NCBI GenBank assembly: GCA_903945325.1
Contig: CAJAVE010000214.1
Span: 1 to 64,000, forward strand
Length of the DNA: 64,000 nt
Reading direction: 5' to 3'
From: an uncultured beta proteobacterium
GTDB taxonomy: Bacteria; Pseudomonadota; Gammaproteobacteria; Burkholderiales; Burkholderiaceae_C
In this document: positions 2,239 through 59,700 of the stretch, one piece after another
Numbering within the stretch: position 1 is the stretch's first letter
Layout: every line of letters begins with the position of its first letter
Program-made: the position numbers and the translations under genes
Notes under the pieces: generated by a model
The model's input: the letters and a program-made list of their open reading frames with translations, nothing else
Told to the model about the DNA's origin: nothing
Databases searched by the model: none

Positions 2239-2290
2239 ATGTATAGCTGGTTGCGCAGTATTGACGGGGTCTAGAGGCCAATTTGGCTAC
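2239..2290 (+). repeat. Dispersed ~60-70 bp repeat, copy A
   Basis: tatagctggttgcgcagtattgacggggtctagaggccaatttggc; shares core AGCTGnTTGCGCA...GGGG.CTAGAGGCC with six other copies. Confidence 0.75.
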
Positions 2291-2305
2291 TAATTTTCTG
2301 TCCCA

Positions 2306-3607
2306 TTACGTTCGCATCGGGTTGTTGGGGTGCGTGGTCCAGTTGGCGTATTGTTCACTCACCACTTTGCCTGTGCGCAAGTCTTTTTCACCGGGGGTCA
2401 AATCGCGCAGGGTGATGCACTCGGGCACCGGGCAGACGACAGCGCACAGGTTGCAGCCCACACAGTCGTCCTCGCGCACCTCAAAGTGGCGTTTGCCGTC
2501 TTTCTCAAACGTGATGGCCTGGTGCGAGGTGTCTTCGCAGGCAATGTGGCAGCGCCCGCACTGGATGCAGGTGTGCTGGTTGATGACCGCCTTGCTGATG
2601 TGGTTCAGGTTCAGGTACTGCCAATTGGTCACGCTGGGCAGGGCCTTGCCCACAATTTGCTCCACGCTGGTGAAACCCATCTCGTCCATGTAGTTGGACA
2701 GGCCGTCCGCCATCTCCTGCACGATCTTGAAGCCGTAGACCATGGCGGCGGTGCAGACCTGCACGTTACCCGCGCCCAGGGCGATGAAGTCCAGCGCGTC
2801 GCGCCAGTTGCCAATGCCACCAATACCGGAAATCGGCAGGCCCGCGGTCAGCGGGTCGCGCGCGATCTCGGCCACCATGTTCAGTGCAATCGGTTTGACA
2901 GCCGGGCCGCAGTAACCACCGTGTGAACCCTTGCCGCCGGTCGAAGGCGACATGGTCAGCGAGTACGGGTCCACACCCATGATGGAGTTGATGGTGTTGA
3001 TCAGACTCACCGCATCGGCTCCGCCCTTTCTGGCTGCACGCGCGGGCAGACGGATGTCGGTGATGTTTGGGGTGAGTTTGACGATGACGGGCCGTTGGCT
3101 GTACTGCTTGCACCAGGCAGTGACCATCTCGATGTACTCCGGCACCTGCCCCACGGCGGCGCCCATGCCGCGCTCGCTCATGCCGTGTGGGCAACCGAAG
3201 TTGAGTTCAATGCCATCGGCCCCGGTGTCCGCCAGGCGCGACAGGATGGCTTTCCAGCTTTCCTCCTGGCAGGGCACCATCAGCGAGACCACCATGGCCC
3301 GGTCCGGCCAGTTGCGTTTGACCTCGGCGATCTCGCGCAGGTTGAGGTCCAGGTCGCGGTCGGTAATGAGTTCAATGTTGTTGAAGCCCAGCAAACGCCG
3401 GTCTGGCGTGAGCAGCGCGCCGTAGCGCGGGCCGTTGACATTGACGATGGGCGGCCCGGCCTCGCCCAGCGTTTTCCAGACGACGCCGCCCCAACCGGCC
3501 TCAAAGGCGCGGTTGACGTTATAGGCCTTGTCGGTGGGTGGCGCGCTGGCCAGCCAAAAGGGGTTGGGGCTGCTGATGCCAGCAAAGGTGGTGTGCAAGT
3601 TGGCCAT
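2306..3607 (-). CDS. preA: NAD-dependent dihydropyrimidine dehydrogenase subunit PreA
   Basis: MANLHTTFAGISSPNPFWLASAPPTDKAYNV...; DHOD-like domain plus C-terminal two [4Fe-4S] motifs (CIQCGRCHIAC, CVGCNLCAVVCP). Confidence 0.92.
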   Translation of the reverse strand: MANLHTTFAGISSPNPFWLASAPPTDKAYNVNRAFEAGWGGVVWKTLGEAGPPIVNVNGPRYGALLTPDRRLLGFNNIELITDRDLDLNLREIAEVKRNWPDRAMVVSLMVPCQEESWKAILSRLADTGADGIELNFGCPHGMSERGMGAAVGQVPEYIEMVTAWCKQYSQRPVIVKLTPNITDIRLPARAARKGGADAVSLINTINSIMGVDPYSLTMSPSTGGKGSHGGYCGPAVKPIALNMVAEIARDPLTAGLPISGIGGIGNWRDALDFIALGAGNVQVCTAAMVYGFKIVQEMADGLSNYMDEMGFTSVEQIVGKALPSVTNWQYLNLNHISKAVINQHTCIQCGRCHIACEDTSHQAITFEKDGKRHFEVREDDCVGCNLCAVVCPVPECITLRDLTPGEKDLRTGKVVSEQYANWTTHPNNPMRT

Positions 3608-3641
3608 CGTGTTCTCCAAATCTTGGGATGCGCTGCGGCGC

Positions 3642-5021
3642 TCAGGCGCGATTCAGGTAGGCGTGGATGGCGTGGGCCGACTGCTTGCCGTGCTCCACGG
3701 CTGCGACTGTCAGGTCCAGCCCCCCGGCGCGGCAATCGCCACCCGCCCACACACCGGCCAGGCTGGTCTGGCCCTCGGCGTCAGTGGCAATGCGCCCCGC
3801 GTTCAGCGTGAGGCCCGATTGACGGAACAGCGGGTTGCCCAATTGCTGGCCAATGGCTTTGAGCACCATGTCGGCCTGCAGCACTTCCGTCTCGCCGGTG
3901 GCCTGCAGCGTGCCATCCACCAGCGTCTGGCGGGCAAAGCGCACGGCGCAGACGTGGCCCGCGTCCTGTGCTGCGGGGTTGGCCAGATCCAGCGTGCCGA
4001 CGATTTCCTGCGGTGCCAGCCAGTGGTGAATGCGCACGCCATTGGTTTGCGCCCACTCCTGTTCGGCCTGCGAGGCGGACAACCCCTCAGGGCCGCGACG
4101 GTACACCATGTGAACGGTCTCACTACCCAGCCGCCGCGTCTGCACGGCAGCGTCCACCGCCGTCATGCCGCCGCCAATCACCACCACACGCCGGCCCACC
4201 GGCAGCGTGGACAAATCCGCGCATTGGCGAAGCTCGGCGATGAAGTCCACCGCGTTGCGTACACCCTTCAAATGCTCGCCGGGCACGCCCAGCGTGCGCG
4301 TCGCAGACAGGCCCATCCCCAGAAACACCGCGCCAAAGTCCCGCCGCAAGCTGTCGAGTTGTGCGGTGGTCTCCAGCTTCCAGTTGTGGTGAACGGTGAT
4401 ACCACCAATGGCCAGCAGCCACTGCACCTCGCGCTGGGCAAAGTTGTCAGGCGTCTTGTAGCTGGCGAGTCCGTATTCATTCAGTCCGCCCGTTTTTGGG
4501 CGTGCGTCGAACAGCGCCACGTCGTGGCCCTGGCGTGCCAGGGTGTGCGCGCAAGCCAGACCGGCGGGGCCTGCGCCGACCACGGCCACGGTTTTTCCAG
4601 TCGCCGTGGCGCGGGTGAAGATGTGCGGTTGGGCGCTCTCCATCAGCGCGTCCACCGCGTGGCGCTGCAGGCGGCCAATGGCCACGGGCTTGCCTTCTTG
4701 CGTAGTACGCACGCACACTGCCTCACACAGGTTCTCGGTCGGGCAGACCCGCGCGCACATGCCGCCCAGCGGGTTGGACTCCAAAATGGTGCGCGCTGCG
4801 CCCCGCAGGTTGTCGTCCGCTATGCGTTTGATGAAGGAGGGCACGTCAATGCTGGTGGGGCAGGCCGTGGCGCAGGGCGCATCGAAGCAATAGAGACAGC
4901 GCTCAGCTTCCAATAGCGCCTGCGAGCGCGTCAGGCGCGGGCTGGCGTCGGCAAACGCTGTGGCGTAATCGGACGCCGCCAAGCGGCCGGGGCGAATATC
5001 GGGATGGTGGGCGACCGTCAT
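3642..5021 (-). CDS. preT: NAD(P)-dependent dihydropyrimidine dehydrogenase subunit PreT (GltD-like)
   Basis: 459 aa with Fe-S cysteine cluster (CLYCFDAPCATACPTSIDVP), GAGPAGLACA and GGGMTAVDAA dinucleotide motifs; next to preA. Confidence 0.9.
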   Translation of the reverse strand: MTVAHHPDIRPGRLAASDYATAFADASPRLTRSQALLEAERCLYCFDAPCATACPTSIDVPSFIKRIADDNLRGAARTILESNPLGGMCARVCPTENLCEAVCVRTTQEGKPVAIGRLQRHAVDALMESAQPHIFTRATATGKTVAVVGAGPAGLACAHTLARQGHDVALFDARPKTGGLNEYGLASYKTPDNFAQREVQWLLAIGGITVHHNWKLETTAQLDSLRRDFGAVFLGMGLSATRTLGVPGEHLKGVRNAVDFIAELRQCADLSTLPVGRRVVVIGGGMTAVDAAVQTRRLGSETVHMVYRRGPEGLSASQAEQEWAQTNGVRIHHWLAPQEIVGTLDLANPAAQDAGHVCAVRFARQTLVDGTLQATGETEVLQADMVLKAIGQQLGNPLFRQSGLTLNAGRIATDAEGQTSLAGVWAGGDCRAGGLDLTVAAVEHGKQSAHAIHAYLNRA

Positions 5022-5213
5022 ATTGGCAACTCCTGTTCGGAAATCTGACCGTTCAGTCAGGTTCGCGCCTGCATACTAGCAATTGTGGTGCCAGCATGTA
5101 ACTAGGGGTTTATCCGCGGATTGAAGGCACTGGTGGCCTTCACGCCATCCGATCAGGTTCCAGCAACCTCGGGTGCCGGACACAGCAAAGACGCTTTTGG
5201 ATAGACTCCGGCC

Positions 5214-58728: not shown

Positions 58729-58838
58729 AAAAGTTTGACACCCCGCAGCGGGCGCCTTGGCTATAGTCGACCCGGTCAGCGCTGCCATGGGGGCGCGTTA
58801 CAGTAGTACGTCGTAATAACGTCGAAAGGGAAAATTTC

Positions 58839-59525
58839 ATGAACTATCGCAACAGGTCCCGCCAGTCGGGCTTTACGTTGGTGGAAATCGCCATCGTCCT
58901 GGTCATTATTGGGCTGCTGCTGGGCGGTGTGCTCAAGGGGCAGGAGATGATTGAGAACTCCAAGATCAAGAGCATCGTCAATGACATGAAGGCCGTGCAG
59001 GCGGCCTACAACGGCTACATCGATCGCTACAAGGCGATTCCTGGCGATGAGACCATTGCCACCATGGCTGCACGTGGATGGGCCGGCGCGGTGGGGGGCA
59101 ACGGCAACGGCGTGCTGCTGATCACGGCAGCACAAACATTTACCAATGGCGGCGAGCAGGGTCCATTTTGGCGCGCCATGCGGGCATCGGGGCTTTTGCA
59201 AGGTGATCCCACCGCGGCAGCGAACGCGACCGGTTTGCCGCGCCATGCAGGTGGTGGTTTGATGGGCGTGTCGTCTGATGTGGCGGGCATTTACGGACAA
59301 AACGGAACATCGGTGTGTGTGGCAGGTTTGACTACCAAGCAAGCGGCCGGAATTGACTCGTTGGTTGACGGAGCCTTGCCGGCGACGCAGATAGGAAACA
59401 ACACGGGTTCAGTGCGCGGCGAGACCAATGCAGCCAACCCGTCAGCGCCCATCACTGCTGTACCAGGCGCTGCGGCCTATAACGAGCAGGCCGTTACAAC
59501 CTGGACTGTCTGCATGCGCATTTAG
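58839..59525 (+). CDS. Type IV pilin-like protein (likely major)
   Basis: RQSGFTLVEIAIVLVIIGLLLGGVLKGQEMIENSKIKSIVNDMKAVQAAYNGYIDRYKAIPGDE. Confidence 0.9.
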   Translation: MNYRNRSRQSGFTLVEIAIVLVIIGLLLGGVLKGQEMIENSKIKSIVNDMKAVQAAYNGYIDRYKAIPGDETIATMAARGWAGAVGGNGNGVLLITAAQTFTNGGEQGPFWRAMRASGLLQGDPTAAANATGLPRHAGGGLMGVSSDVAGIYGQNGTSVCVAGLTTKQAAGIDSLVDGALPATQIGNNTGSVRGETNAANPSAPITAVPGAAAYNEQAVTTWTVCMRI

Positions 59526-59570
59526 TCCTGGCGATGTCCGAGATTGAGGCCTAGTCATCGCGTCAACCTC

Positions 59571-59600
59571 AGAAAGGCCCGCTGATGCGGGCCTTTCTTG
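59571..59600 (+). terminator. Intrinsic terminator after pilin gene
   Basis: agaaAGGCCCGCtgatGCGGGCCTttctt. Confidence 0.85.
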
Positions 59601-59635
59601 TGGAGATTGGCCCTTAGTGCGTCGAACCGATATTT

Positions 59636-59700
59636 GAAGCAAAATAGGCATCTAGATCATATGGAATCTGCGCAAGCAGCTATCATTTTTGTAGTGTTAT
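59636..59700 (-). repeat. Dispersed repeat, copy G
   Basis: Reverse complement ctacaaaaatgatagctgcttgcgcagattccatatgatctagatgcctattttgc. Confidence 0.75.

Follow-up and report, generated by a model that had tools for sequence, protein, structure and literature searches.

A repeated DNA element of about 66 bases is present in seven copies in the window, a stretch of 64,000 nucleotides from an uncultured beta proteobacterium (assembly GCA_903945325.1, contig CAJAVE010000214.1, positions 1 to 64,000), and hundreds of copies occur in its own genome and in some related Comamonadaceae genomes. We propose, with a probability of roughly 60%, that the element is a short interspersed, non-autonomous family of about 66 bp similar to the repetitive extragenic palindromes (REPs), which is old and spread in single-stranded form through a RAYT-type HUH tyrosine transposase. 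The seven repeats were confirmed as true members of the family. The core AGCTGNTTNCGCA has seven perfect matches in the 64-kb window, without any mismatch, and a profile hidden Markov model (HMM) built exclusively from external copies (174 in total, of which 77 come from the congener G218 and 97 from other own-genome contigs) detected the same seven copies with E-values from 9.5e-14 to 8.4e-9. The best control match reached only E = 0.74; the controls were the reversed window and 20 dinucleotide-shuffled sequences. In the own genome, 319 exact cores were found versus 4 for a reversed-pattern control. The original prediction had placed seven copies at these sites, with three (B, C and G) inverted relative to the other four (A, D, E and F), and both the places and the orientations were borne out by the exact core and the external HMM, which find exactly these seven. 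Its own proviso, that few further copies might turn up or that the alignment might be no better than shuffled controls, did not apply.

Layout and genomic context of the element

Taking the A of AGCTG as position 0, the conserved unit spans about -16 to +48, with the layout CTAY, A/T tract, RTAG or GGAG, AGCTGCTTGCGCA ... ACGGGGGCTAGAGGCC, ATTT and ..AA. The motif ttRCTAY (-14..-10) is followed by the A/T tract at -8 to -4, the tag RTAG or GGAG at -2 to +1 and AGCTGCTTGCGCA at 0 to 12. The right half consists of AC at 19-20, GGGGGCTAGAGGCC at 21-34, ATTT at 36-39, C at 42 and AA at 47-48. The left arm was exact in 22 of 28 copies in a set not selected for this arm, and the right arm shows 60-93% conservation per position. 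The element has a GC content of 46% and an information content of about 60-65 bits, of which 36-41 bits lie outside the retrieval core. The flanking A/T tracts swap between AAA and TTT as blocks. The shared pattern of the original prediction was thus recovered but not its variable spacers, as the spacing is constant, with no indel in 250 of the 256 profile HMM matches.

The element is laid out like a GTAG REP, as an imperfect palindrome that carries a tag, with an almost invariant CT on the 5' side of this tag. The REPs of E. coli carry the GTAG tag, an imperfect palindrome with required mismatches and a CT cleavage site; RAYTs cut at this CT, and A3G4 of GTAG is believed to select it (PMC8266576). 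In our element, CT at -13/-12, eleven bases upstream of the tag, was found in 41 of 41 and 76 of 77 copies (both sets not selected for CT). Base pairing is maximal only at i+j=34, reaching 47% in the own genome (next best 34%) and 58% in G218 (next best 38%), and a T27 opposite T7 mismatch interrupts the palindrome in 91 of 97 copies. A RAYT-type transposase would probably read the tag together with the imperfect hairpin and cut at CT.

The covariation analysis was rerun on less biased copy sets, the first set being biased by loci picked for an exact left arm. No covariation between CTAY and RTAG was found, and mutual information revealed no covarying base pairs. The folding energies of own-genome copies did not differ from those of dinucleotide shuffles on either strand (z ~0), and Rfam gave no match at the copies. 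The absence of an Rfam match, the folding z-scores near 0 and the lack of covarying pairs speak against an RNA element or riboswitch family, so that the RNA-type alternative of the original prediction is not supported. The same folding energies and missing covariation make a family of intrinsic terminators, each a hairpin with a T-run, highly improbable, and a terminator would have no need of a conserved sequence. Such a family would nevertheless agree with the position of the copies after stop codons, with orthologous copies of some congeners being near-perfect hairpins followed by TTTT, and with unrelated terminators filling the same gap in other congeners. A promoter reading of GCTATAAA was dropped, because copies are scarce between divergent genes and the hexamer lacks conservation.

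The gene context was determined with a simple hexamer gene caller, which assigned 87% of the own-genome DNA as coding. About 81% of the copies are intergenic and about a fifth lie inside genes. The 212 intergenic copies are located between co-directional (134), convergent (61) and divergent genes (17), differing significantly (p = 1e-10) from the background junctions with gaps of at least 60 bp (364, 82 and 161, respectively). The element edge lies at a median of 6-13 bp from the stop codon in either orientation, and the orientation relative to the gene shows no bias (69 to 65). The family therefore has more than 100 dispersed, mostly extragenic copies at the 3' side of genes, between co-directional or convergent open reading frames (ORFs), as described for GTAG REPs, whose location pattern is the same (PMC3733652). 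We suppose that copies would persist where they are least harmful, namely immediately past a stop codon and in the gap of a convergent or co-directional gene pair. A replichore bias turned out to be an artefact on the complete G218 listing. In three own-genome contigs (C31, C101 and C152), several copies are near-identical in sequence up to the following ATGA start codon, which suggests duplicated gene cassettes bounded by the element.

RAYT-type transposase and age of the family

The search for a cognate RAYT, advised by the original prediction, yielded a candidate. The only PF01797 protein found in the own genome is a RAYT relative of 234-239 amino acids at G000:C373 (L188), with an NF047646 match below the cut-off and weak similarity to the TnpA_REP structure 4er8. 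Its gene is flanked by the terminal inverted repeats (TIRs) GGGGTCAGAT and GGGGACACAT, which match the GGGGWSAS TIRs of TIRYTs (PMC3733652); the enzyme therefore belongs to the TIRYT type and not to the classical GTAG-REP type. In high-copy genomes, an element body sits between the RAYT stop codon, which it abuts, and the 3' TIR. Of the 12 genomes that have 44 or more exact cores, 9 carry a copy at the RAYT gene, versus 1 of the 35 genomes with fewer cores (p = 1.5e-6; these are not independent events). The congener G264 possesses a second RAYT type with copies on both sides of the gene, and both-sided flanking is clear only there. We consider the RAYT as probably the mobiliser of the element. 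The presence of a RAYT was rejected as a predictor of copy number, since RAYTs are nearly universal. The L188 locus and about 40 further RAYT loci are mostly single-copy, with TIRs that are often separated by 48 bp on the 3' side, and the gene looks vertically kept.

Copy number varies strongly between related genomes. In the own genus, exact cores range from about 0 to 319 between species and are at background level in many congeners. Most Comamonadaceae genera are near background with some peaks, such as 22, 11 and 101 in one genus and 92 and 4 in another. The named hosts are Polaromonas, Rhodoferax, Curvibacter, Acidovorax, Ottowia, Variovorax, Comamonas and relatives, and copies also occur on a few plasmids, including those of Rhodoferax and Polaromonas. 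These exact-core counts understate diverged copies; for instance, G251 has 63 cores genome-wide versus about 41 profile matches in 360 kb.

The comparison of orthologous loci, also advised by the original prediction, revealed sites without the element. At the locus of copy C, about ten congeners have diverged orthologs of the same length, whereas the gap is 7-8 bp in two congeners as compared to 85 bp, and others carry unrelated hairpin terminators. At the locus of copy D, the orthologous gaps of three congeners are 45-60 bp shorter. The sister genomes G218 and G251 are about 90% identical over one syntenic block; almost every copy compared occurs in both, and sequence divergence within the copies is no slower than in the flanking DNA, so that turnover is slow. 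Over 25 free positions, own-genome copies have a mean nearest distance of 8.3, close to about 9.0 after column shuffling, indicating an old spread with no recent burst.

Copies in the window and inside genes

The seven copies of the window are listed in Table 1. Copies B and F are intragenic, which the original prediction had left unremarked. The recQ-like helicase gene next to copy E probably has its true start near 41355. A weak eighth profile match inside a gene (17780-17844, minus strand, E = 0.03) was not counted as a copy.

Table 1. Copies of the element in the window and the host gene of copy F. Core, position of the exact core (the 5' base for the minus strand); E, E-value with the external HMM.
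Feature	Coordinates	Strand	Core	E	Location
Copy A	2229..2293	+	2245	3.6e-13	Intergenic; 3 bp from amidohydrolase gene 784-2226 (-), 12 bp from dihydroorotate-dehydrogenase-like gene 2306-3607 (-)
Copy B	8174..8238	-	8222	4e-10	Intragenic; in frame in 3' part of CoA-transferase III gene 7131-8399 (+), residues 347-369; Pfam CoA_transf_3 match at 12-395 of the protein
Copy C	24206..24270	-	24254	9.5e-14	Intergenic; fills the gap from the stop of aminotransferase gene 24277-25656 (-) to the start of aldehyde dehydrogenase gene 22677-24191 (-)
Copy D	30419..30483	+	30435	2.2e-10	Overlaps the 3' end of metallophosphoesterase ORF 30422-31309 (-); the convergent neighbour is TetR-family gene 29777-30403 (+)
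Copy E	41390..41454	+	41406	8.4e-9	5' side of recQ-like helicase gene 39492-41441 (-), in the divergent region preceding the homocysteine methyltransferase gene
Copy F	45759..45823	+	45775	1.1e-11	In-frame insertion in metH activation domain
Copy G	59633..59697	-	59681	3.4e-10	Intergenic; 14 bp ahead of gene 59712-60581 (+), 108 bp past gene 58839-59525 (+)
metH	43526..46330	+			Host gene of copy F; 934 amino acids; pterin, B12 and activation domains with Pfam and PDB matches

Copy F is an in-frame insertion, and congeners lacking it exist. It adds about 20 codons to the activation domain of MetH; the copy encodes 22 residues, and a stretch of 24 residues takes the place of a short loop of the E. 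coli protein. In a set of 30 congeneric metH genes, the site comprises 25-29 codons in 14 genes and 3-12 in the other 16. The presence of the copy is patchy on the metH tree, indicating several losses or gains. No target-site duplication was seen at metH, the net change being 60 bp. This finding, together with ends (TTGCTAT...AAAT) that are not inverted repeats, makes a cut-and-paste miniature inverted-repeat transposable element (MITE) of a DDE transposase a most improbable explanation, even though the element is a discrete unit and relatives have sites without it. The MITE-like part of the original prediction, like its RNA-type part, was therefore not sustained; its high-copy, non-autonomous and REP-like parts agree with the copy number, the extragenic 3' location, the tagged imperfect palindrome and the RAYT-adjacent copies.

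In total, 38 copies scoring at least 30 bits are flanked on either side by coding signal within an ORF, and 33 of them use two of the six frames (p = 1e-11). The open frame is partly a requirement, because the other frames run into stop codons. The embedded elements themselves score non-coding in nearly all cases. Other intragenic hosts include polA, a hemD-like gene, a nuoE-nuoF fusion and the linker of a 2-oxoacid dehydrogenase acyltransferase. Copies may occasionally persist in frame in protein loops and linkers. A match in aroA (L095) was not counted as an insertion since it adds only 3 residues, and the matches in rsmB (L071 and L075) may have arisen by chance in the collection scan.

Several observations weigh against a RAYT-spread REP-like family. 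The copies in lolD (L002:656-1420) and lpxB (L118:1957-3159) lie in native sequence, with the protein length unchanged compared to E. coli. The own-genome tag is mostly ATAG (75 copies, versus 22 with GTAG), as compared to 28 ATAG, 23 GGAG and 23 GTAG in G218, so that GTAG falls short of the more than 90% of members expected of GTAG REPs. The palindrome lacks compensatory changes, with G5 opposite G29 in 27 of 35 copies. No dimers of the REPIN or BIME kind were found, the copies being mostly single with the closest gaps of 1.2-1.7 kb in the G251 stretches, and, as noted above, distances between copies are scarcely smaller than after column shuffling. The RAYT carries its own TIRs and occurs in 96 of 103 genus genomes regardless of copy number. 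The element-adjacent RAYT position is mostly one inherited position, with G208 and G114 as exceptions; the association therefore represents far fewer than ten independent events.

Both lolD and lpxB are essential genes, and the embedded copies bring rare codons such as ATA. A quite unlikely explanation is that, besides insertion of the metH type, the element can overwrite existing sequence, spreading through single-stranded DNA replacement similar to oligo-recombineering or through uptake-biased recombination. If true, repeats would have a new way to disseminate, by overwriting without insertion. It is very unlikely that the whole family is a motif like the DNA uptake sequences, enriched by biased transformation, with each copy evolving at its own site and homologous recombination spreading it. 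The near-absence of family structure among the independent copies, the strong core with A/T-rich flanks, the equal orientations and the unchanged length of lolD and lpxB are compatible with such a motif; however, the information content of the element is far above that of known uptake sequences, the insertion in metH is clearly of a whole unit, and the copies are mainly intergenic although most of the DNA is coding.

The main rival is a role in host DNA binding. A chromosomal protein, such as a roadblock terminator, an insulator or a topology or nucleoid factor, would bind a double-stranded site of about 66 bp at gene ends, and purifying selection would keep each copy. The rigid indel-free spacing, the block-wise switch of the A/T tracts, the position at stop codons and between convergent genes, and the negative coding score of the ORF-embedded copies all fit this explanation, as do the same-length copies in lolD and lpxB and the free positions, which are mutually saturated while the key positions are conserved. 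Nevertheless, we regard it as rather unlikely, since the copy number is at background in many congeners, divergence of the G218 and G251 copies is no slower than that of their flanks, and the with/without comparisons at metH and at intergenic loci point to gain or loss of the whole unit. In addition, no candidate protein was found. With RAYT-driven spread long ago as single-stranded DNA, most copies would probably not be functionally required.

Two further features of the window were observed. The region around metH contains two S-adenosylhomocysteine (SAH) riboswitches (Rfam SAH, 53 bits each), at 41524-41613 before the homocysteine S-methyltransferase gene (41638-42714) and at 43429-43501 before the metH remainder. 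Methionine synthase is thus split over two genes, each with its own SAH riboswitch, with a cNMP-binding regulator gene (42758-43324, minus strand) between them. Moreover, a 73-nt inverted repeat with GC-rich arms (6796-6868 and 6983-7055, 114 nt apart, 90% complementary) lies in an intergenic region.

Comparison with known systems

The element forms a large, apparently unnamed REP-like family in a common environmental bacterial family. Given the strong copy-number contrasts within the genus, the near-universal RAYT and the gain/loss polymorphism in a conserved gene, metH, how REPs spread, and whether they do so via RAYTs, is testable across close species. In addition, the in-frame copies, found here outside Rickettsia, are a natural experiment on the acceptance of foreign peptides by proteins. 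The element is not named in the open papers searched, most subscription papers, including the one cited for MITEs of Polaromonas JS666, being outside the scope. That MITE (Mattes 2008, as cited in PMC10969869) comes from the same host family. The REP papers searched mention no Comamonadaceae genus in their main text.

Two families of short repeats were set apart by their descriptions. The Rickettsia palindromic elements (RPE) are likewise short repeats found in frame in unrelated metabolic genes; however, they are described as about 150 bp long, and our element is mostly extragenic and its host is a free-living betaproteobacterial family. The betaproteobacterial repeat element (BRE) of Bordetella is also a short dispersed repeat, reported in Polaromonas, Rhodoferax and Acidovorax, but it is about 90 bp long, has 69% GC in Bordetella and is often in tandem (PMC3110155), in contrast to the 66-bp, single element with 46% GC.

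The closest systems are the REPtrons, formed by GTAG REPs and their RAYT (TnpA_REP) (PMC3733652, PMC8266576, PMC2817692). Similar to our element, GTAG REPs occur in high copy number, extragenically, less than 20 bp from gene 3' ends and between convergent and co-directional genes; they combine a tag, an imperfect palindrome and a CT site, and have RAYT-adjacent copies as well as some copies inside genes. However, they are 20-40 bp long, whereas the element is a rigid unit of about 66 bp with the tag RTAG or GGAG and without dimers, and the RAYT of these genomes, unlike that of REPtrons, is flanked by the GGGGWSAS TIRs of the TIRYT type. The element is thus REP-like in location, copy number and layout but departs from the GTAG consensus and the length range; therefore, we classify it as a variant of the GTAG REPs rather than a member.

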